The position numbers and the translations under genes are program-made. DNA of 64,000 bases from Gossypium raimondii (taxonomy: Eukaryota; Streptophyta; Magnoliopsida; Malvales; Malvaceae): contig NC_068570.1 of assembly GCF_025698545.1 (NCBI RefSeq), positions 2,356,001 through 2,420,000 of the forward strand, read 5' to 3'. The notes below the pieces were generated by a model. The model was not told the DNA's origin. It searched no databases and worked only from the letters and a program-made list of their open reading frames with translations. This document shows, in pieces, positions 522-51,459 of the stretch. The number at the start of each line of letters is the position of its first letter. Within the stretch, counting starts at the first letter, position 1.

Positions 522-2976
522 TTATAAAACCTGCTCACCAATTAAGTCTAGACCAACAAGAAGGAAAGATATCCCTTGAAATAGCAAGAAATAAAAATGG
601 ATACCCTGTGCTGATAAAAGACTCCTAGCTGAAGCTGTTAATAGAAGGAATGCTAAAGCTAGTTCCTTTGTGTACATCCTATTATGCTTCTTTTGCCTAC
701 TCTTTTGTTCTCGAAGAATATCGGTTTTTGTTTCGTCAAGATTGGGTTCGGATTCCCCGCGCTGTTGTTTTGTTTCTTTCTCGACCAAGGATACAAGATC
801 ACCCTCGGATGATCGACCTGATTTCTTCGTAACAACCCATTCGTATGCGCTACCAAGTTGGAAAAGACCGGAGATCATGGCGTTGAACTTGGTCACTGAC
901 ATGGTGTTCTCGAAAAGAAGGTAAGGAACAATGAATGGGAATGATTTCGGGGTTGGAAGGATGTTTAGGAACGACATTGTAGCAGGGATATAACAGACTA
1001 CCCATGCCGGAAGCTCGGCCTCGGGAATGAACATTGTCATGGGGAGAATTATGCAGAAAAGAGTGAACGAATAAAACGGTAGGATCAGCTTTCGAAGCAA
1101 AAAGAACAGAAAGATCATATTGAATTTCTTCCACATACTGATCTGCATCGATCGAAATACATAACAAGAACAATAAGAATCGATCAAGAATTACGGGTTT
1201 TAAAAGTGTTTCAAAAAAGCATTCACCTTAGCACGAATAATATCCGGCAAACAAAGACGAAACAACTGCATCGGTCCTGAATGCCATCTATGTTGTTGTT
1301 TCCTATAAGCTTCATAAGATTCGGGAAGCTCACATTGACACTGAAACAGATAACAAACCCCGGAAAAACATTACAAAATGAATGGCAGCTAAATTCAACT
1401 ACCAATAACTAAACTTGAGCTATACCTCGACATCATTGATGAAAACGAATTTCCATCCAAGAAGATGAGCACGGACCGCGATATCCATGTCCTCAACGGT
1501 TGTTCTTTCCAACCAACCACCGGATTCCTCCAACGCCTTAATCCTCCAAACCCCGGCAGTACCATTAAACCCGAAGAAATTTATGAAAACACCATTCACT
1601 TGTTGTTCTACCTCAAAGTGAAATGACAAATTAACATTTTGCAATCTAGTTAGTAAATTCTCATCTTTATTAACAAAGGACCACCTTGCTTGAACCAGCC
1701 CTACATCCTCATTATCCTGTAAGAATTACGACAACAACAAAAAAAAACACAACTAATTTCACTGCCAATTAATTCTAAAACATGCACGATACATCAAGGA
1801 AAACAGTTACCTTAAAATGGGGAATGGTTCGTTTTAAAAAATCGGGTGCCGGTTGGAAATCGGCGTCGAAAATGGCAACGAATTCGTATTCTTTAACGTA
1901 ACTATAACTCATGCCGGACTTAAGATTACCAGCTTTATAACCATCTCTGATCACACGGTGGCGATATACAATCCGGGCACCTTCTTGTTGCCATTTATGT
2001 ACTTCTTCTTTAATAAGCAGCTGTGTTGTTGGCTCATCAGAATCATCCAATATTTGTATCAAAATCTTCGATTTTGGCCAATCTAAATTACAGACTGCAG
2101 CTATTGATTGTTGATAAACCTGCAAAAATACAAAAAAAAAAAAAAGGAGCAAAATTTAAGCATGGATTTATCATAAAATGATTAAAAAAGGGTCTTTTGT
2201 GTGTGTTTTTTCTGGGTTTTAATTTTTATTACCTCTTTTTCGTTGCACATAGGGATTTGAACGAGGACCATTGGGAAGAAACCATTTTCTTCGAGGTCAA
2301 CAATGGCGTCTTGTTTAGGGATTGGTTTGATTTTCTTGAACCGGATCCAAAAGCAACCCAAACAGAGTACAAGCCGGTCCAAGCTTTGTACAATGAAGAG
2401 GATGATACAGACATTAGCGAGGAATTGAAGAGGTGGAGCTAAATACCCGACCCGAATCAAAACCCAACGAGTATACAACCCGTCGAACAAATCCCTAACA
2501 CCGAACGGCGCCGTGAAAATGTACTGTAATTGGAGTTTCGGGGCACCGAAATGCCAACCTTTGAAATACGCGGCGATTTCGAAACCGAGTAATAACAAGG
2601 ATAACCAAAGGAACGCTTTGATGCAGTTATAGAACCGGGTTTTAACAGTTTTGTTTTCGGTCGAGGGAGTGCTGTCGTTGTTGTCGGTTTGACCGGAGAT
2701 GACTCGGCGACGTATGGTTGAACCGAGACTGAACAATGTGGAAGCAACGGAGGTTAAACAACCGGCGGCACGGTGAGCTTTCAAGAGGAGTACCCAAGTG
2801 AGTTGCTTCGCGTTTTTGCCACGCGCTTTCTCTTGCGTGACCGTCGACGTTTGAAAATCGGATTCCGATGGAGCTTCAAGTTCAACCATTGACCAGTTTG
2901 GGTTCTCCATTGTGACGACGACCGGAGTTCCTTTATGACTTCCTTTTCCCCACCAATTAAACGACGGCAGCGCCAT
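522..2976 (-). CDS. Cellulose synthase-like C (xyloglucan beta-1,4-glucan synthase)
   Basis: Five exons read on the minus strand: 2976-2233, 2119-1811, 1716-1426, 1340-1227 and 1142-522. All introns are phase 0 and GT-AG, and the product is 692 aa, the usual CSLC length. CSLC proteins are Golgi membrane GT2 enzymes that polymerise the glucan backbone of xyloglucan. The conserved catalytic set is visible: DDSD at about 273-276, DAD at 333-335, VEDMD around 425-429 and QQHRW at 463-467. Hydrophobic segments lie in the N-terminal third and there are several in the last exon, as expected for a GT2 transmembrane channel. The N-terminus ([18 protein letters not shown], then [12 protein letters not shown]) and the C-terminus resemble the CSLC12/CSLC5 branch, from memory of the family. 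The start is chosen because this conserved N-terminus begins there. The gene looks intact. The exact paralogue is not assigned. Confidence 0.95.
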
Positions 2977-15723: not shown

Positions 15724-18700
15724 TTATGATGTAATTCCTTCATCAACATAAAAAATGCTATAAATGTCACTAGTCACTGCCACTGTGCTTGTTGAGACAG
15801 CAAGAAAGATCATCATCCATGATATTAGTCTATCATTCTTTGTTGCAATTCCAGGGATGTTCCTGCATGGTTCCATATCAGAAAAACGAAAAAGATGTTT
15901 TGAGTTCATAAAATATGAATTTTATGCCATTTCATATATCAAAATCCCTTATCCAACCATCTAATTTAGGGCTCAATTATGTAGACCATCTATGATTTAG
16001 GGACTAATAATGTTGCCATTGATAAAATCATGTTTGACACATTCAACAAAACCGGGACATAAGAATGCTTAAATTGGTTGCCCAACATTTTAGGGGTTGC
16101 TCACATAATGGCCAAACATTTCAAAATGGTCATATAAGGCCCAAACATTTACAAAAGTGCTCAAATGAAGGCCAAACCTTTCTAAATGATCAGATAAAAG
16201 CCAAACCTTTTCAAAATGTACAAATAAGGGTTAAACCTTTTTGAAAGTGTTCAAATAAGTGCTTCTCAAATATCATATATCAGGTTTCAAATTATGTTTT
16301 TATAATTTTATCTTCTTTTCAAGCAATTTTTGGTTCAACTATCATATGTTTTATTCTAAACATGTTAGCATTCACCTAATTTTTACTACAAATTCGGCTG
16401 AAGTGCATGAAAGTCCTTTATTTGAGCACTTTTATAAAGGTTAGGCCCTTATGTGAGCAAGCCCCAACAGGTTGGCCCTAATTTGAGCATTTAGCCTATA
16501 CATAATCATATAACCATTGCTTACCTAAGAGTGATTGCAGCTGGAAAGATGAAACCAACACAAACTGCAGCAGTTGCACCAGTGAACTGAAAGGCATCCC
16601 AGATACTAGGAACAAAGCTGGCTCCCATAAGTATAAAACCCATAAGAGCAATTGTTACTGAGAAGAACCTCTTGTTGTCAAAAGCAATAGGAATTGCATA
16701 TGGAAATAGAAGACCATCAACGTTGAGACGAAGGGAGAAAAATACTATCGGGAAAACTAGCATCAGGTGAAGGCCATAGCTCACTCTGACCAGATCATCA
16801 AGCAATGAACTATATGGAATCCCGAGGTCGCCATCAAAATTGGCAAGCACATCATCCATAGTATGATCCCCAAAGAGGACTACCCCAAAGAAGCTGGTTG
16901 CTATGTACACAGAGGTGCATAATGTGAGAGACTTTCTAACTATTGACTTCATCTGTGTAGGGTCTTTAAGTTCATTCTCTATAGGGAGTACTGCAAGGTG
17001 AATTTTTGTCAATAGGAAATTGTGTTAATCAATACTCCATAGCAATAAAAGAAAGCAATCATACACTAAAGAGATTTGAAATTGAAATATCAATTTTCAA
17101 CATGTATTTAACTGCTACAATGGAATGCATAGAAAGATGGTAATAAAAGGACTAATATAAACAGATTAAATATCTCTTAGGGCATGCTTGGTTGAGTGAA
17201 AAAGTGGAAGGAAAGGAGGAGGGAGTGGAAAACTGGGAATAAAAGTTTGAATGTGCTTCGTTGGAAAGAAAATAGAAGATATAACCATTTTCCATCGTAA
17301 GGCATAAAAAACAATCCTTCCAAATTGGAATGGTAAGAGAAGAGAAAACGAGGGAGGAGTATATGATTGTTCAAAATCTCTTTAAATAATGGAAGGAAAG
17401 AAAATTACTTTTTCTTTCAATTGTTCCATCTTTCCTACCAAGCACAACCATTGAAAGAAAAATTATATTTTCTTTCTATTTTTCTACCCCTTCAATTTTC
17501 CATCTTTCCAATTTTTTTTTTCACTCAACCAAGCAAAGCTTTAGTCTCGAAAACGAACAATTTGCTACAGAATACTCATGATAGATTCAGAAAATACTAA
17601 CAGTCCTAATAATTGGTGCATCATATATATATAATTGTGTTTGTATTTGATACTGCCAATACATAAATCTACACTCTCACAGTGAACCACACATTGACAC
17701 CTCATTAGCAACCCTTAAAAACATAGATAGTTAAACATTTTAATATGCAGCATTACATAATTCATTGTCGATTTATACACTGATAGTGCATTAATAGAAA
17801 ACCTTTATAATTCTATGTAATATTGAACCAAAAAAGGGTCAACTTGGTCTTACCCTAGTTTTGTGTATGTAGATAATGCACTCAACCAACTAACAAAGCG
17901 AAAGTAAATCAACACAGTGTATTGGTTGAAAATTAACTTGAACAAACAATATACACAAGCAAAATATGATGGTAAAACGAATAGCATTGAAGGTACTAAA
18001 ACAGTATATCATTACTTACTGTTATGGTGGCATATATAAGCAGTAACTACAACAGGCACAGTGGTGAAAAGCTTCCAAAACGATGCCTGATTAACAAGCT
18101 TTGGCATTAGTCGAGGCATCCCAATCTTCCCTTCCATCAACTTAACAATTACAACTCCAGCAGTTATTGCCACAAAGACAACAGCTAAGGCAACTGACAA
18201 CGCTGATGTGTATCTCAATGAATCTAAAAATAACCAAAAGCATCACAATTTAAACCCAATAAAAAAAGTTAATACCTTCAACAATTTTATAGCAACAATT
18301 TAGAATTTTGGCCAACATGAGTTGAATCACGACCCATCCCAGCCTGTGAGGCTTGATCATGTTCAAAACATAACTCGGAATTGTCTTATTGGCACTTAGG
18401 TTTTGCCTAACTCAAGTGTGCCTCCAAAGATATTAATCATGTCACAACATAAAAACGAGTGCACTTTGCGAAATAGATACTAATTGATATCTGTTCTACA
18501 GAATACCTAGACTTAAGTACCTATAGATAACCAAATAAGACAATTTCGAGTTATGCTCTCATAACACGGCTGATACCCCAAACTGGAGCCCATCGTGACA
18601 AATTAGTTTAATTAATTGGTTGAGCACTCATTAGCACTTCGAGTTACACCGTATTGAGCTTATAAAAATTAAAATTTTGACTTACCAACGCGCTTGAATG

Positions 18701-19341
18701 AAATGAGAGGAGCAAAAACGAAAAATGTGGTGAACAAGAGTAAAGCGGAACGAGTGGTCCACCAATGTTGGCCGAACCATTCTTCGATTACTCCACCGTG
18801 GTGGAACCCATCCACCGAAGTCCCCGATAATACATCACCTGCCAAGCCAACAAATTTCAAAATTCAAATTCAGATCAAGCGGCTATTGATAGTTCCACAT
18901 GGGAGGGCTTGATAAAAGTATACCTATGATAATCATGTAAACCACGAGCATGCCCAAGTTGTTGATGACGATGCAAGCTTGGAGGATGTTACTGCCGGCT
19001 CCACCGAAAGCATTGGTGGCGACGCCTGAATACGTTTTTGACTTGGAGGCTCGGCTAAACCTTAGAATCATATCGATAGACGATTCAGTCAACATAGAGA
19101 CGAACATGATAGTGAGAAGACCGGGGATTAAGCCGAGCTGATTGACGGCGGCTGGGAGACCCATGATTCCAGCTCCGACGATGGTGGTTGAGAGGTTGAA
19201 AACGGCACCGGAAGTCGACGCGCCATCGAAGCCAGATCCGTGAGCATCAAATGATTGGTCGTCATCGAGCTTTTGAGGGAGGAGAGGGGACCGAGGAGGA
19301 CTCCGGCGGTATTTACGATCCGATGAGGGTAGAACCGTCAT
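15724..19341 (-). CDS. AVT6-type amino-acid transporter (SLC38-like)
   Basis: Five exons on the minus strand: 19341-18924, 18838-18686, 18223-18020, 16990-16525 and 15862-15724. Phases 1,1,1,2 agree across all junctions and give 459 aa. The N-terminal cytosolic tail is followed by the AAAP signature region GAVFNLSTTIVGAGIMGLPA, where TM1 is broken by the unwound GAGIMG motif, and by about ten further hydrophobic segments. Plant AVT6 proteins move neutral and acidic amino acids out of the vacuole, and that role is assumed here by homology. The last intron (15863-16524) is almost filled by a foldback MITE. The last acceptor was chosen at CATGCAG because it restores the conserved R-x-x-x-G-I-A-T-K segment. 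The ORF continuing further upstream at that exon is intronic. It looks intact. Confidence 0.92.
16062..16495. repeat. Foldback MITE with internally repetitive arms, copy 2
   Basis: Lies inside the last intron of the AVT6-like gene. The left arm (about 16066-16258) holds roughly five tandem degenerate units, each built from GGCCAAACCTTT-like and TCAAATAAGG-like words. The right arm (about 16410-16495) is the inverted form, ending TTTGAGCATTTAGCC. The central spacer matches copy 1 at 3665-4005 in reverse orientation. Non-coding. Confidence 0.75.
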
Positions 19342-29930: not shown

Positions 29931-33530
<3,600 letters not shown>

Positions 33531-34084: not shown

Positions 34085-36992
34085 TCATACCCTCGTGTTC
34101 TTCCTTTCTTGCTTTATAGCCTCGTACGACATCATCACCTCTTTAAATTTCGCCTCGGCAACTTCTGGAATATAACACGAATGAAGTTTAAATAAAAAAC
34201 AATCTGAAGAAACACCGTGTTATGGTTAGGGTTCATAGTAATAGTTGCCGAATGGCCAAAACATCTTACCTTTATTATCCTGGTTCTGATCTGGGTGGAA
34301 TTGTTTCGCCTTGGCCCTGAATGCTGTCTGCATATAGACATCATTGTCGTTTTATCATTTAACCGTTAAATGATACATCCCCAAACCCTTTATTTTTAGC
34401 TTTTAAAAGTTATGCAACAACATTCTAATTTTCTTTAAATTTAACTACATAAGATTTGATAACGAAGTGACCTATTTGATATAACACGATAGTTTGAGAA
34501 TGTAATTAACATGTTTTGAAGTTTGGGGACCAATTTAAAATGGGGGTCATAGTTTAGGGTGTCTGGTGCAATTAACTCTATATAGTATATGAATAAAGTC
34601 ATTCCAAGTCAACTTTTGATCAAGATATATATATATATATATATATATATGATATATAGCCAATAACATAACGACGAGCATATATATCAAAATGCAGTGA
34701 TGGAGAAGCATTTTAAAAATAATTCAGTATACCTTAATCTCATCTTCAGTATATGGTTTCAATCGGGCTCTGAGAACAGAAGGAAGTCAAGATAAGTCAA
34801 TTACCAGTGCCAAAGCTCTTGGCTATAGCAAAATGAATATGATTGAAAAGCATTTATTAACACTGTAAAAGCAGGCATTACCTGTCAAGACCTAAAACCG
34901 TGTAGTGATGTGATAATGGATAGCTCGCTCGCTCTCTTTGAGGTGGCCTGTAATTAGTTCTTTGATCTCTGTAAGATGCATCTGCTTTCCAATACCAATC
35001 ATCTCGTTGAAAGTGTTGATGGTAAGCACCGGGACCAGTTTCTTTCCAGGTTTCATAGCTCCTTTTGTGTTTATTTCGTTCCCTGTTAAACACACTTTGC
35101 ATCCGCCTTATTCGTTCCTACAAAGAGAATAAGGAATTTAATTAAACAATAAGATGACATAAAAATATAGAGAATGCTCGAAACACAATCGAAAGCTTAC
35201 CACTCTTTCCATTTCTTCTTCGTGCTCTTCTTGCATTCGGCGATTATACCTTCTCCATGCTTCCTCTTGAAAGGATGTTCGAGAAGAACCTCCTCCTCGT
35301 GATGATTTTGACCTGACTAACTTTCATGGTGCAAGTACACACACAATGATCAGATTAACAGATACGATCCGAAAAAAAATAACAAATGCTATAGTCAAAG
35401 TAAGATTTCAGCAAAAGTGATTGATCCGTACAAAAATTCAACAAGGCAACAATCAAACATAACACAGCTCAATTCATATCCTTAAATCTAAAAATATTGG
35501 TCAAAGTACTATAGAAGCCCTTGTATTAGGAGTCAGGTTGCATTTTGCCCCTTCTACTCAAAAAAATGGGCAAATTAGTCCCTACACGTTAGATAAAAGA
35601 GCTAACTAATCCTTATGTTAAAAATTTCATCCAATCTACTATTAAAAACTGGTTCTTGTAAGTCAGAATATGCTACATGTGGCACGTGTAACTGTTTGGT
35701 TAATTCGTCAACCACGCTAAATTTTAACAATAAAAACGAATGAATTTTTACACAAAAAGAACCACTTTGCTCTTTGATCTAACGGACAAAGACTAATTTG
35801 CCCATTTTTGAGTAAAAAAGCAAACTGCAATTGACTCCTAGTATAGGAGCCTCCATGATACTTCTACCAAAAATATCAGCAAATGAAAACAAAGGTACTT
35901 AAACTTGACAACAAAAATAACACTTTTTAGCACATTGCAGCAGCACACACGGTATCAAAGCAATAATTTTGTATCAAACAAATCCTTCGAAACGAATCTT
36001 CCTCTTTAAATCTATTGCATCTTTACTTAGGAAAAATGCCTATCATCCTATTAACATTATGTTCTCATAAAAACCACTAGCCATTAGTCTAAATTTGTAG
36101 TTATAGAAGCAATTCAATAGCGAAAAAATTAAAAACTTTTAAGAACCAAAAAAATCCTTCCACCATTCCCTTTAAGAAAACAACGAAGATGCTGTCAACT
36201 ATAGTATTATTGAATCTACAATAGCTGAAATTGGCGAAAGAACTTGTTTTCAATATACCTGAGTATATATCCAATCAACAGATCTCCTCAGCTGACTAAC
36301 CTGCCAGATTTTGTAACTGCAATCAAATGGGCAATTCCAACAAATAGTTGCTCCCACAAACACTAATTTAGACAAAACTACCATGGAAGCTCTGCATTAG
36401 AAGTCGGTTGCATTTTGCTCCATCTACTAAAAAAAATGGGCAAATTAGTCCCTTAATGCTAGATCAAAGAGCAAACTAGTTCTTTAGTTAAAAATTCCAT
36501 CCAACGTGTCACTCTACGACAGTTTTAAACCGTGCAAATGGATGACAGTTTTAATAGAAAGAACTAATTTGCTCTTTGATTTAACGTATAGGGACTAATT
36601 TGCTTATTTTTTTTAGTAGAGAGGATAAAATGTAATCTGACTCAGAGCCTCCATGGAACTGTTACTCACTAATTTATTAATATAATTTGTTCCCATTCCT
36701 TAAAAAACCCTAACCTTTGGTCTAAAATTGAAGGCCAATAAATCAAATTAAACCCTAACAATGCATCGTATTATAATAAACACATATATAAATCTCAGAA
36801 CCATTAAAAGATTGAAACTTCAAAAAAAGGGATTTGGTGGGGAATGGAGGAACTTACCGCGAAAGTGGTTGCAGTGGCGCCAATTAAACCAAAGAGGAAA
36901 ATTCCCCAAAGTTTGGGGTCATCATCTTTGGCTTTATAATCCTTGTTTGGAGACGACCATTGTTTATCCCTTTCAGCTCCTTCGCCTCCCAT
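34085..36992 (-). CDS. Membrane-anchored J-domain (DnaJ-like) protein
   Basis: Seven exons on the minus strand: 36992-36858, 36300-36259, 35320-35201, 35117-34882, 34769-34733, 34327-34270 and 34164-34085, all GT-AG. The product is 235 aa. It has an acidic/basic N-terminus, one hydrophobic segment (LWGIFLFGLIGATATTF, about 29-45), a charged middle rich in Arg and Glu that may form a coiled coil (about 60-125), and a C-terminal J domain from about 170 to 233 with the HPD motif at 201-203, which is needed to stimulate Hsp70 ATPase. The topology suggests a tail-exposed co-chaperone on an organelle membrane; the compartment is not shown. Two introns carry copies of one MITE family. Assembly is well supported by phase and by the uninterrupted J domain. 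Confidence 0.9.
34624..34652. repeat. (TA)n microsatellite in a J-protein intron
   Basis: About 14 TA units in the intron between exons 5 and 6 of the J-domain gene. Likely length-polymorphic. Confidence 0.85.
35500..35870. repeat. Palindromic MITE family (four copies), copy A
   Basis: Lies in the second intron of the J-domain gene. Left text: GGGCAAATTAGTCCCTACAC. Right text, inverted: GACTAATTTGCCCATTTTTG. The same phrases recur at 36375-36660, 44180-44525 and 61848-62090. The outer ends (ACTATAGAAGCCCTTGTATT and its inverted partner GGAGCCTCCATGATACTTCT) form long terminal inverted repeats. No coding capacity. Confidence 0.8.
36375..36660. repeat. Palindromic MITE family (four copies), copy B
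   Basis: Second copy in the same gene, in the first intron. It begins ACTACCATGGAAGCTCTGCA and ends GAGCCTCCATGGAACTGTTA, with the GGGCAAATTAGTCCC phrase and its inverse inside. It is shorter than copy A because of internal deletions. Confidence 0.8.
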
Positions 36993-44179: not shown

Positions 44180-44525
44180 GTAAAAGTATTTTGGAGACCC
44201 CTACACTAAGAAGAATTAGATTGTATTTTGCTTCATTTACTCAAAGAATGGGCAAATTAATCCCTGTACACTAGATCAAAGAATAAACCATCTTTTTTGT
44301 TAAGATTTTCATCCATTTTTGCTATTAAAACCTAGCCTGTTGATAGAATAATCAAATAGTTACACAGGACGTGTTGCGTACATCTTAGTAGAAATTGATG
44401 GAATTTTTAACAAAAGAACCCGTTAACTCTTTGATCTCCTGTATAGAGACTAATTTGACTATATTTTTAGTAAAGATGACAAAATGCAATCTGACTCCTA
44501 CTACAAGTACCTTCTTGGTATTTTT
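44180..44525. repeat. Palindromic MITE family (four copies), copy C
   Basis: Just downstream of the OSCA-like stop codon, inside the possible last intron. It carries AATGGGCAAATTAATCCCTG and the inverted AGAGACTAATTTGAC. More diverged than copies A and B. Confidence 0.7.
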
Positions 44526-45224
44526 ACCTCCTGAATTGCTATTAATAATTTGATTTGATCTGAACTGAATTGAACCTAGCCTAACTTTTCAGGTATTCAA
44601 CAAGTTCAATTAGATGAACAATAGGCTGTTGATTGCACTTGGGAACTGATTGATTCATCTCTTATCGTCAATGTGCCAAAAAAAGGCACCATCATCATAT
44701 TGGCGGTTGCTTGCTGGGACCAGTAGCTGTAACTTGTACATTTATATAGGAAACATTTAACACCAGTAAAGAGGCAAAGAGAGACTGGAAGCAGCACATA
44801 GGTAATAGTTTTTTTGCTGTGGAAAATTAAGTACTTTTTCAGTTTTATTTTCTCAAACTTTATGGGGCTGAGATAATTCATACACAAGATGCCCTTGTAT
44901 ATGTATATAACCTTAGACTTTAGTAATTTAGGTTTTTATACCATCAATTTGAAGCTAAAATATTGTGTATTTTTTCCAATTGTATATATAATATATGTGT
45001 CTTTAAACATGTATTTTTTCAATGTATATAATATATTTTTCTTGACTAAAGAAAGATTAGTCTAATGTATAGTAAAAATAAATTAATTTAAAAATACTTA
45101 AAAGAATAAAATGATATTTTAAAAGTAATGAAAAAAAAGTAAATAATAATAGACAGTGAAACAATAGTAATTAAATAAACTAAACCAAGCATAAATTAAG
45201 ATAATTAAGCTGAGATATCTTTTG
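44526..45224. other. 3' flank of the OSCA-like gene
   Basis: Contains the possible alternative last exon (44593-44616: TATTCAACAAGTTCAATTAG then ATGA) and AT-rich sequence with TATATATA-type words that may hold the polyadenylation region. No separate gene. Confidence 0.4.
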
Positions 45225-46260
45225 TTTGTTAGATATAATAGTGATGTGATTTGATAATTTCCAAGTGATTTGTCAATGGATCAAGGAACCAACACCAAGA
45301 TGCATGGTTCTCATTTTTACTGCAACATATGTAATAAGATGGATGCCATTATTTGCATCTAATCTCAGTAGTTGTCAAAATGTAATCACCATAGTACCCC
45401 TTCAAAAAGCACCCATCTAAATTGATAATCCTTAAATCTAACTTTATAACCATCTTTGAATGCTTGCGGACAGATTATACAAGCTTTGAAATAACTTAGC
45501 ATCTAGGGAGCATATTGTGGTGGTGCCAGAGCCTTATAATCATCTTTGTTTGCTTATAGATAGATATACAACCTTTGAAATAACTTAGCATCTAAGGAGC
45601 ATATTGTTATGGTGCTAGGTGTTAGGAGTCTTAAGCTCTCATAAGTAATCATAAATCTTCCCATACTTATTTTTATGACTCCCTCTAATTAATTCCAGTG
45701 CTCTTAAGTGAGATAATTGTCAGAAAGTCTTTTTTCACGCCCTGTTGCAATGATGTCAGGGCATAATTAGGGTCACTAATAAACTCATCTTTATAATGTC
45801 TGCCAACCATTTTGCTATGTTCTTCCTTTTATGGACCTTTGAGCAAGTATGTTGAGGGTTATAAGTTTTGATTTGTCATGTTTACTCAACTTGCTCATTA
45901 GGGTTTACTTTTGAGGCTCATAAGATTAGTATCCTTACAAATTGTCTTCAACCTCATATTATCATTTTTGGGCACTTAATAAAATATTTGTTAACCTTAA
46001 CATACTGCTTAATAACCTCTTTGATAGTGTCTTTGGTTGGGATATTAAATCTTTTTTCAATTTGGACTTACCATATCAGTATTGAACTCATGCCAATTTT
46101 GGCCATCCAAGTATGAATCATGTGTACCGTGTAAATCCTCAGGTTTATCATTATCTAACACATTCTCTATAGCGACATCTTCCATGTTGAAGTAGGGGAT
46201 GATAACGAGGAAACAAGTGAGATTTATATAGGTGAAAGGGTTAGTAGAAACTTAGATGGG
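45225..46260 (-). pseudogene. Degenerate MULE (Mutator-like) transposase
   Basis: Read on the minus strand in shifting frames, the order is that of a plant MuDR-type protein. An acidic N-terminal part (MEDVAIENVLDNDKPEDL) comes first. TKDTIKEVIKQYVKVNKY then resembles the plant MULE N-terminal domain, and YKDEFISDPNYALTSLQQ resembles the region before the transposase. LDGCFLKGYYGDYILTT follows, and finally LDANNGIHLITYVAV and NENHASWCWFLDPL from the MULE catalytic core. Stops and at least two frameshifts separate these pieces. An internal tandem duplication of about 80 bases (45480-45540 and 45560-45620) interrupts the region before the DGCFLKG motif. The end of the transposase is missing. 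Non-functional. Confidence 0.75.
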
Positions 46261-46379
46261 TTCAACATGAAAAATGTCACTATAGAGAATTAAAAAAGGC
46301 ATTTTTTATTTTGTTTAATTATTATTTATTTTAATTGACTTAACAATTATTTTAAATAAAAATTCACATAAGGCGCTCA

Positions 46380-46880
46380 ATGATAAAGGAAGTAGGGATG
46401 CAGAGACAACTAGGAGGTTTGCCTAGAATTAGCCACTTTTAAAAGAGTGCATAATAACTCATTGATCGAGCACTCTTGTGTTGAAGATGAACGGGGCTAA
46501 GCGATCTGCTGAAGCTATGGGATGTAAAAATGCATTGGTAAGAGAGCGTTCTGCCTTAAGAGGAAACACCTGCATGAACAGGAGTAGACAAAGCGGAAGC
46601 AAGAATGTTAGCTTGAGTAACACAAACAATGGTGAGAATCCCAATGCCTCGAAAACTTAAGGGTTTCTCTGCAAGGTTCGTCCACGAAAGGTGAGTCAGG
46701 GCCTAAGATCAGGCCAAAAGGCATAGTCAATGGACAACATGTGAATATTCTTGTACTAGGAGGCTAGATTCATCAAAAGATGGTTATCGGTTCAAAGACA
46801 CTAGGTACCATTGCTTCTTCAAGGTAATAATGGGTAGAGAAAGTGTCCCGAGCCAATGTTTGAGTACTAGACGCCACAAA
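46380..46880 (+). pseudogene. rrn23 fragment: Nuclear copy (NUPT) of part of the plastid 23S rRNA gene
   Basis: The sequence reads in order like an internal part of a bacterial/plastid-type 23S rRNA: GATAAAGGAAGTAGGG, AACTAGGAGGTTTGCCTAGA, GAAGATGAACGGGGCTAAGC, GCTATGGGATGTAAAAATGC, GAGTCAGGGCCTAAGATCAG, GTCAATGGACAACATGTGAA, AGATGGTTATCGGTTCAAAG and GAGCCAATGTTTGAGTACTA. From memory this corresponds to plastid 23S, with many C-to-T and G-to-A differences and a deletion near 46763 joining GTACTA to GGAGGCTAG. These changes, the AT-rich flanks and the isolation from other plastid genes argue for an old nuclear insertion that is no longer functional. Plastid rather than mitochondrial origin is favoured but not proven. 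Confidence 0.88.
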
Positions 46881-47649: not shown

Positions 47650-48180
47650 CACAACTTTTGGTCGAATATTGTTATTAGTCCCTATGCTATGCCCAAGTTG
47701 TGAATATAATTCATATACTCTAATTTGGCCAATTTTAGTTCCTATAGTTTAGAATTTAGAAATTTCAGTTCTAACTCAAATGGTAGTTGTTATATCTTAT
47801 AGGTTCAATTTTGCTATTAGTCTTGTACTATATGTAAGTTGTGGCTTTATCGTTGTCCTCCAATTAGATATTTTAAAATTCGAAATTTTAGTCCTAAATC
47901 AAAGAGTAGCTGTTAAATCCATTAACTAAAAATGTTGCGGGTTCTTTTAGTATTATGTGGAAATAGCAAGCTGACATGATATTACATATGTGATAATATG
48001 TCGCGACATAAGATTTTAGAAAGAACAAACTTTAACTTAGCTAATTTAACAGCTACTGTTTGGTTATTATTGAAATTTCAAAATTCGAAAACCATAGAAA
48101 CTTAAAATCACCAGATTAAAGTAAAAAGATTAAATCCACAACTTATACATAATATAGGGATTAATAGCAAAATTTGACCA
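47650..48180. repeat. Palindromic MITE with adjoining fragment, family shared with 4010-4345
   Basis: A full copy at about 47805-48180 begins CAATTTTGCTATTAGTCTTG and ends GATTAATAGCAAAATTTGAC, which are inverted complements. Immediately before it (47650-47800) is the left end of a second copy, TTGTTATTAGTCCCTATGCT. Internal words match 4010-4345. Confidence 0.7.
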
Positions 48181-50659
48181 AATTTTTCAATAAAATTATA
48201 AAATTTCCACATTAAAATAACTACCTTTTAATTTGGGTACAAATTTTACATAGAGAAAATGAAAACACAAGGTGAGAAAATATTTGTTAAAGCACGACCA
48301 TGTCTTATCAACACAAGAAAAATTGACAATGAAAAATAGGCATTATTTTCATCCAATTGTTTACATTATTTATATGGTCAATCTGAACAAGTTTACGGAG
48401 CAGGACTGCGTCGCTGAATTAGGTCGTGTGTGAAACATGAACAACTTATTAAACGAATGTACACACATCACGATCGGTAGAGTTTTAATTCCCTTATCAA
48501 TACATAATTTTTCCTATTTTGCAAGTAAATCTATATTTTTTTTTGCTAAAAAGAATATTATATCATCAACCCCTCATGAAAAATATTTCACCAACAACGT
48601 AAAAATGTCTTCAACATTATTTTGTCTCAGATAATGTCATCTTATAACTTTACCTTCGACAGGACGAACTATTGTTGTACGTCTCCATTGCGTTTGGAAG
48701 GTCTGACCAGGTTGACCATCATGCATGGAGACCTTCCTCAACGAACCTAAAAGACGACCATGCCAATATGCTGTATGACTATAAACACGTGGACTAATGC
48801 ACTACCTACACATGATCTTATACACCCCACACTTGTCTCAACAAGAGCATTTAGCCCCTCAAAATTTTAAAAATTTTAGTTTTTTATTTTTATTTTTATT
48901 TTCTAAAAATTTTAATTAAACTCTTCTTTTTTTTTTTTCTGAAATTCTCATTAGTCTCACAAAAATTTAAAATTTATAATTAAACCCTCTAATTATTTTT
49001 GAAAAAATATCATTAAATTTTAAAATTTTGAAAATTCTATTTAAGCTATCTCAATATTTAGTCCTAACATCCGTCATTGAAGAGTAATGAAAATATGTTA
49101 CCCAAAGAAAATTTCATTATTTCCTTTTGGAATTTGTTATGATTGATTGGTTTTGAATAAAAAATAGACATGAATCTAAACTTATAGCACAAGTTTATTA
49201 ATTAATAGGTAGCATAATTTGACTTCAATCAATTTCATGGAAATTAGAATGTTTAGAAAGCTAGTAGTAGATTGAAAAATCTAAAGAGTTTTCCTCTTTG
49301 AATAAAATAAAAGTGTAGGTAGCATGTGGGGTTACTTTTGATAATGATTGAAACCAAATTTAATGAAATTAATTGGGCAATAATCAATGGTCTTTGCCTT
49401 ATATGACCAAATGCACACCACTTTGCATGAAATTGATAGTCAAATGATTATACTACTTATAATGATCTTCATATTAGATTTTGGGTAAATTAAAGTACTA
49501 AAATTATATATATGTTTTTGGAAATTTTGCATTACAATTTTATCGCTTTCTCTTTCGTATTGGAGCCAGAGATGGGTCAGGCGGTAATTATTTAGAGAAG
49601 GAAATAAAAAGTTATAGATGAAGGGGTAATTTTATATGTGTTGAGATTCAAACCCTAAATTTATTAGATGTTATCTTATAAGTCAGATTAATTTCAAGTT
49701 TAGACAATTACCATGTTATTTATATATAATTGTATATTCAAATGATTGTTCGGTTTTCACATGAGTAGATTATGAAATCAACTATTGGACCCTATCAGAT
49801 TGTAAGATGCAATAATATGGTAGATTGCACTCTTAATGAGAGAACTCAAGTTCGAACTTTGGAGATAACATTATTAAAAAAATTGCGGTCACGAATTTTG
49901 AAAGGATTAGTCTTCATGGACAATATATATTGCTTTTAAGCCTTTGGTTGGTGGTTTGACTCTCTCACATGCATTTTCCATAATGATGCATAATATTAAG
50001 ACTTCTCCCATAAGCTTCTGGTAGGTCGTATCTCCACCAACTGAGGTATCTTCCATCTATAAACAGTACATAGCTCTTTGCGGGAGCTGGGGACAATATC
50101 TTTGATTGTTGGGGATAGTGTTGGCTATCTGATGGACAACATTTCGTAAATTTCTCTCGAAGGAGTCCATTCCCACCATAACAAAGTATAAAATGTATAA
50201 ATTGTTTGATATAATACATATAGAATCTAGCTTAAGTGGATTAGAGAAAGGATGATTGTTTTCTTCAACAACTCCCTTATAGGCAGGCATTAGCCCTCGG
50301 TAGCTATTAGATAATAAAATAATATACGAGGTTATCATCTATATATTGAACTATAAGCTAGCAAATTAAACTGCTTCAATTACCCATAAACTTTCAACAA
50401 GAGCTTTAAATCAATTAATATACCTTCAATTACATGTAATACTATGACACAAATAGGCATTAAAAAACACACAAAAAACAAAAAATGAGCACTAAAAAAC
50501 ACAGTGAAGAAAAAGAATTCACCAAGATTCAAATATAACACCAAGCACATATGAACAATACAAAGCAACCATATAATAATGAGCTAAAACTAGATTATAA
50601 TTATCATTTAAATTTAGGGTTTTCTCTCTAAGATTATAATTCAACACCTCCCTTTCAAT
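48181..50659. other. Gene-free region with unassigned islands
   Basis: The segment 48370-48850 is less AT-rich and may be retrotransposon debris. At about 49770-49870 a B-box-like CAAGTTCGAACTTT suggests a SINE. The segment 49920-50340 is GC-balanced with open frames on the minus strand (49965-50219 and 50057-50338) that I cannot relate to any family. Apart from these, it is AT-rich with MITE fragments. The last 100-200 bases are 3' UTR of the MYB gene. Confidence 0.35.
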
Positions 50660-51459
50660 TTACTGCAAGCTGATACGATCATTGAACGCATAGTGTTGAA
50701 ACATTCCAAGGCAAACCAGAGAGCTTGTATCATTGATAATGTCTTCCCCATATAACAATCCCATTCCATTTAATGAAGAAGAACTGGTTTGCCCTTGAAG
50801 CATGTGCTGCTCCATATTTGCTCCATCTACAACACTGCACTGAGAGTTCGTAAACTGGATACTTTGTTCTTGGCTCGAGTACGGTACCGGCACCACCGGG
50901 AAAGGCGGCTCAGGCCGGAGATATCTGCCAAGAAGCTTCTTCTTAAGTCTTGTGTTCCAATAATTCTTTATATCATTATCAGTCCTCCCGGGTAACTGTG
51001 CAGCAATAATAGACCACCTAACAAAAAAAATCATGCAAGTAATTATAGCGATATATATACTAGTTTAAATGAATATGAATCATTATATTATATATATATA
51101 CGTACCTACTCCCAATACTGACATAGAGACTACAAATAATTTCATCTTCTTCTTCCGAGAAACCTCCATGTTTGATATTTGGGCGAAGATAGTTCAACCA
51201 TCTTAAACGGCAGCTCTTCCCACATCTCTTGAGACCTATGTTATCATAAAAAATCCTCTCAAAATCACATCATACACCATACATAAACACATCCATATAC
51301 ATATATTAATATTAGTTTATTACCAATTTTCTGAGGCAAAGAGATCCAGTTTCCACCAGTACCATAGTGCTCAATATATGCCTTGAGCTTGGCATCTTCT
51401 TCAGGTGACCATGGACCTTTTTTCACGTTAGCTTTGTCACAGCAAGGAGCTCTACCCAT
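50660..51459 (-). CDS. R2R3-MYB transcription factor, RAX-like group
   Basis: Three exons on the minus strand: 51459-51324, 51235-51106 and 51017-50660. They give 207 aa, with the two introns at the positions and phases usual in R2R3-MYB genes. The N-terminus [20 protein letters not shown] is that of the subgroup containing RAX1-3 and MYB36/68/84/87, as I recall it. R2 spans about residues 14-62 and R3 about 67-113, with the regular tryptophans in R2 and [20 protein letters not shown] in R3. In R3 the first tryptophan is not in its canonical place, as in most plant R2R3-MYBs. The C-terminal part after [13 protein letters not shown] is only about 85 aa, shorter than most relatives of this group (about 300 aa). 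Nuclear transcription regulation is the expected role; relatives control axillary meristems and root or endodermal development. Confidence 0.92.

Follow-up and report, generated by a model that had tools for sequence, protein, structure and literature searches.

A stretch of about 500 bases in the genome of Gossypium raimondii reads like the inside of a plastid 23S rRNA gene and lies among nuclear repeats. It was found in 64,000 nucleotides of contig NC_068570.1 (from here: the window; locus C6:2356001-2420000). Is this stretch a NUPT, i.e. a plastid-derived sequence on a nuclear chromosome with non-plastid flanks? By which changes did it come to differ from its source, and did it reach this place on its own or as a member of a repeat family?

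Identity, limits and surroundings of the 23S rRNA fragment

The initial annotation had described some 500 bases as an internal part of plastid-type 23S rRNA, and the matches to RF02541, the bacterial LSU model of Rfam, agree in this with the alignment to other copies in the genome. RF02541 (gathering score 50) matched the plus strand at 46374-46503 (72.6 bits, model 1057-1188, E 2e-19) and at 46650-46852 (52.4 bits, model 1338-1685, E 9.8e-13). A local alignment between the fragment and the consensus built from the other copies reached a score of 343.6, compared to 18.9 for the best of 200 shuffles in blocks of two bases. The rRNA stretch itself thus stood, while its limits, previously set at 46380-46880, were refined to those given in Table 1, resulting in an insert of 504 bases. 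The fragment is nuclear because it is embedded in a contig (C6) of 60.4 Mb. A functional LSU rRNA gene would be complete and free of losses, whereas the insert holds an internal part only and carries a 25-base deletion.

Table 1. Coordinates of the insert, of neighbouring features in the window and of three atypical 23S copies elsewhere in the genome
Feature	Position	Strand	Remarks
Decayed internal fragment of plastid-type 23S rRNA, NUPT	46374..46877	+ (sense strand)	RF02541 model ~1057-1685 and copy alignment
Left insertion junction	46373..46374	.	by eye without microhomology or target-site duplication
Right insertion junction	46877..46878	.	consensus alignment
Junction of 25-base deletion	46757..46758	.	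consensus alignment; +/-1 owing to a shared A
60-aa mechanical ORF, GTG start	46478..46660	+	within rRNA text; nothing speaks for a gene
Inverted repeat	44213-44497		left of insert; sequences related to its right part occur elsewhere in the genome
Dispersed repeat	~45176-46191		left of insert
Inverted repeat	46162-46290		just left of insert; 30-base arms, 90% complementary, 69 bases apart
Dispersed element, MITE-like	~47656-48182		right of insert; inverted ends of ~160 bases
MIR7502 microRNA precursor match	35616-35754	-	77.2 bits (gathering 71)
Copy L022	G000:C2:15005600-15012100		many non-deamination differences, 304 such events in 3498 positions
Copy L035	C7:26319200-26325500		many non-deamination differences
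Copy L020	C11:19774800-19781300		many non-deamination differences

The insert is flanked by dispersed repeats on both sides, as the initial annotation had it. The MITE-like element to the right has relatives at 39 other places with 68-77% identity (39 scored of 1562 candidates). No match elsewhere was found for the 87 bases directly left of the insert (46287-46373; 40 of 1839 candidates scored) or for the ~775 bases to its right (40 of 1562 candidates scored). When two long plastid-type loci of the same genome, L014 and L022 (6.5 kb each), were compared with the window, nothing matched outside the insert.

The 60-aa reading frame had been called an artefact of the rRNA text; it exists, and it lies entirely within that text. 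The opposite strand has two further frames, of 61 and 50 aa, that overlap the rRNA stretch. Elsewhere in the window, five of eight ORFs scanned, at 1775-2152 (-), 16521-17012 (-), 18883-19341 (-), 32749-33165 (+) and 50660-51034 (-), had Pfam matches (Glycos_transf_2, Aa_trans in two, squalene epoxidase and Myb_DNA-binding) and look like exons of ordinary plant genes. The MIR7502 family is known from cotton.

Substitution spectrum and deletion

As reference we used the majority consensus of 33 decayed copies, with the window copy left out and in the frame of L014; it is not a plastid genome, and it rests on 11-24 copies per position (sampled in steps of 25 bases between 1100 and 1725). The window copy was identical to this consensus in 434 of 503 ungapped columns. 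The 69 substitutions comprised 61 transitions and 8 transversions, and 58 of them were C>T or G>A, which bears out the earlier description of the differences as mostly of this type. Both strands were affected alike, with C>T at 24 of 110 C and G>A at 34 of 167 G. When sorted by context, deamination-type changes were found at 22 of 67 CG, 14 of 46 CHG and 22 of 164 CHH sites; hence, cytosines in CG and CHG were changed about 2.4 times as often as those in CHH (Fisher p 0.0003). The C>T/G>A excess and its concentration in CG and CHG argue for deamination of methylated cytosines, which the initial annotation had proposed.

The remaining 11 substitutions are not of the deamination kind, and the copy has one 1-base insertion. 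The consensus reads A/T at six positions of the stretch where G or C is retained in two copies; the window copy agrees with the consensus at five of them, and the remaining one falls inside the 25-base deletion. The consensus is therefore perhaps itself decayed at these positions, so that the deamination count is if anything slightly low. With gaps included, the window copy (82.0% identity) belongs to the more decayed of the 34 copies, next to L033 (80.8%) and L027 (82.4%). Because just 11 of the 69 substitutions are not deaminations, an age between millions and tens of millions of years may be roughly guessed for the insert, using nuclear substitution rates from the literature.

A short deletion had been noticed near 46763. 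It is real and 25 bases long, and its junction was moved a few bases to the left (Table 1). The deletion is absent from 20 of 20 other copies that span the site; the other 13 of the 33 do not reach across it. A recurrent deletion at a hairpin near consensus positions 1531-1555 was considered and rejected, as none of the 20 spanning copies has the 25-base loss. Small losses do occur there, of 4 bases in L022, 2 in L025 and 1 each in L029, L033 and L035.

Other 23S copies in the genome and independence of the insertion

A search of the G. raimondii genome (750.8 Mb, 281 contigs) with the stretch 46380-46880 yielded at least 37 matching pieces, the window's own included; the remaining 36 sit at no fewer than 33 other places, these counts being lower bounds. 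All 33 places were retrieved, and cmscan was run on five. Here, L014 showed a 5S and a tRNA next to a complete 23S, while the other four contained partial 23S sequences. ARAGORN called no tRNA on L014, although Rfam matches one. L022 possesses a full 23S and a tRNA-Arg(ACG) found by ARAGORN; within 3 kb on each side of it (L053, L054) a single tRNA was found, and no additional rRNA reached the gathering score. L014 and L022 follow the order of the plastid ribosomal operon. In a plasmid collection, the best three records and five of the six best were cyanobacterial, the sixth being labelled E. coli. The insert shares its text with these rRNA-tRNA loci, and the top plasmid records are cyanobacterial, which together point to a plastid origin. 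A pattern scan for a deposited plastid reference returned a single Caldilineaceae contig from genome_contigs and zero matches from viral_contigs.

Since a bacterial LSU model matches the insert, one might suspect contamination (bacterial or in the assembly) or a functioning rRNA gene. We regard this as next to negligible: the locus lies within the 60.4-Mb contig, just an internal 23S part is present, with 69 substitutions, a deletion and a methylation-type spectrum, and the closest cyanobacterial record among the plasmids has 76.5% identity over 76% of the stretch. As a side observation, most of the 2911 bases of the plasmid record NZ_AP027616.1, whose label is Escherichia coli, align with plastid-type 23S, and the record is as close to the 23S of L022 (74.9%) as cyanobacteria are; it is perhaps a mislabelled or misassembled rRNA circle. 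In another copy, L015 (G000:C8:37825000-37831500; also L004), the flank left of the 23S piece, read by eye, presumably resembles plastid ndhH, and this locus may be a mosaic of rearranged plastid segments.

The number of matching pieces could also mean that a dispersed repeat or transposon once captured a 23S piece and then spread it, and two pairs of copies, L013/L019 and L024/L043, do have near-identical ends on both sides. Such a family would be recognizable by common ends, common flanks or an excess of shared derived changes; among the copies compared, ends were not clustered, shared changes were not in excess and the inspected flanks differed. The shortest aligned copies have ~100 bases, the longest include the entire 23S and extend past it. 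Their ends on the 23S map are distributed as at random, with 14 pairs within 3 bases compared to 13.4 in simulations (p 0.46; 49 ends between 1100 and 1700, some of them internal breaks). Both ends lay within 5 bases of each other in three copy pairs; the agreement of L014 with L022 merely reflects the limits of the consensus, and the other two pairs had 11 shared derived changes versus 14.5 expected (L013/L019) and 1 versus 0.6 (L024/L043), with differing 40-base flanks. With expectations set by context class, the window copy shared 187 derived changes with the other copies compared to 205.7 expected (33 pairs), and all 461 comparable pairs together shared 1701 versus 2064.1. Spread by a transposon is therefore highly improbable. 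As there is neither an excess of shared changes nor a clustering of ends, the insertion in the window is, by these comparisons, an event independent of those at the other 33 places.

Two further hints of a common unit were discarded. Many matches started at base 1-2 of the query and stopped near 491-498, which is explained by the limits of the query; the repeat-unit reading was dropped because ends were spread as at random on the 23S consensus and the inspected flanks differed. The left ends of the window copy and L016 differ by 1 base, and their flanks match at 11 of 16 bases (a single, post hoc test gave p 0.00075). Nevertheless, for the 120-base flanks 116 of 500 shuffles scored as well, and the two copies had 3 derived changes in common versus 3.9 expected, so the agreement is taken as chance.

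Origin of the fragment and comparison with published NUPTs

We put the probability at about 97% that an interior part of plastid rrn23 was captured in the nucleus as an independent insertion, became methylated and decayed by 5-methylcytosine deamination. End joining at a broken chromosome would be the most likely way of entry. The fragment would then have been methylated, as the mutation spectrum suggests, and would have decayed mostly through deamination with few other substitutions, acquiring in addition one 25-base deletion and one 1-base insertion. The sequence evidence supports the view of the initial annotation, a plastid 23S fragment in the nucleus decaying by deamination, and the insert is most likely without function.

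A detour is conceivable, in which the fragment came to the nucleus from the mitochondrial genome as plastid-derived mitochondrial DNA. Plastid-derived DNA is present in plant mitochondria, according to the accessible part of a report on cotton (PMC6852956), and the non-deamination changes of L022, L035 and L020, some of them common to two copies, could reflect such an intermediate. The window copy itself shares 0 of 36 events other than C>T with L020, 4 of 37 with L022 and 1 of 36 with L035, and the four and the one are gap columns inside its own 25-base deletion. Its substitutions are, moreover, mostly deaminations, which makes the mitochondrial route very unlikely.

The three atypical copies deserve mention in their own right. 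Their differences include deletions of 1-4 bases. L022 has 12 non-deamination events in common with L035 and 9 with L020, while none is common to L020 and L035 where the two overlap (270 bases). That these copies carry the changes of a second source, such as a foreign plastid or mitochondrial DNA of plastid origin, with the window copy coming straight from the cotton plastid, appears doubtful; an assembly error in L022, L035 and L020 is the simpler alternative.

The gene rrn23 is located in the plastid inverted repeat. Nupts have been described for four cottons; a hotspot among their sources is the inverted repeat, and they total 2072 kb in G. raimondii (PMC6852956). As far as the accessible part of that report goes, its Gossypium NUPTs and the window copy are alike plastid DNA in cotton chromosomes, without a difference in kind; the window copy stands out as short and as one of the more decayed of the 34 compared. 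In what is available of two other reports, the C>T and G>A excess of NUPTs was attributed to methylation and deamination (PMC6376042, PMC7037861). The window copy shares this excess; here, the CG, CHG and CHH counts were made on the copy itself and methylation was inferred from them. For moringa, prokaryotic-type rRNA genes derived from NUPTs have been described, in the part of the source at hand, with expression reported for some of the NUPT RNA genes (PMC11110229). Both cases concern plastid rRNA in the nucleus; expression was reported for moringa, whereas the cotton copy is known from its sequence.

The insert is thus an ordinary further example of a NUPT, a kind already known. For annotation it means that such pieces yield false rRNA matches and false ORFs, and they are usable as clocks of methylation-driven decay.
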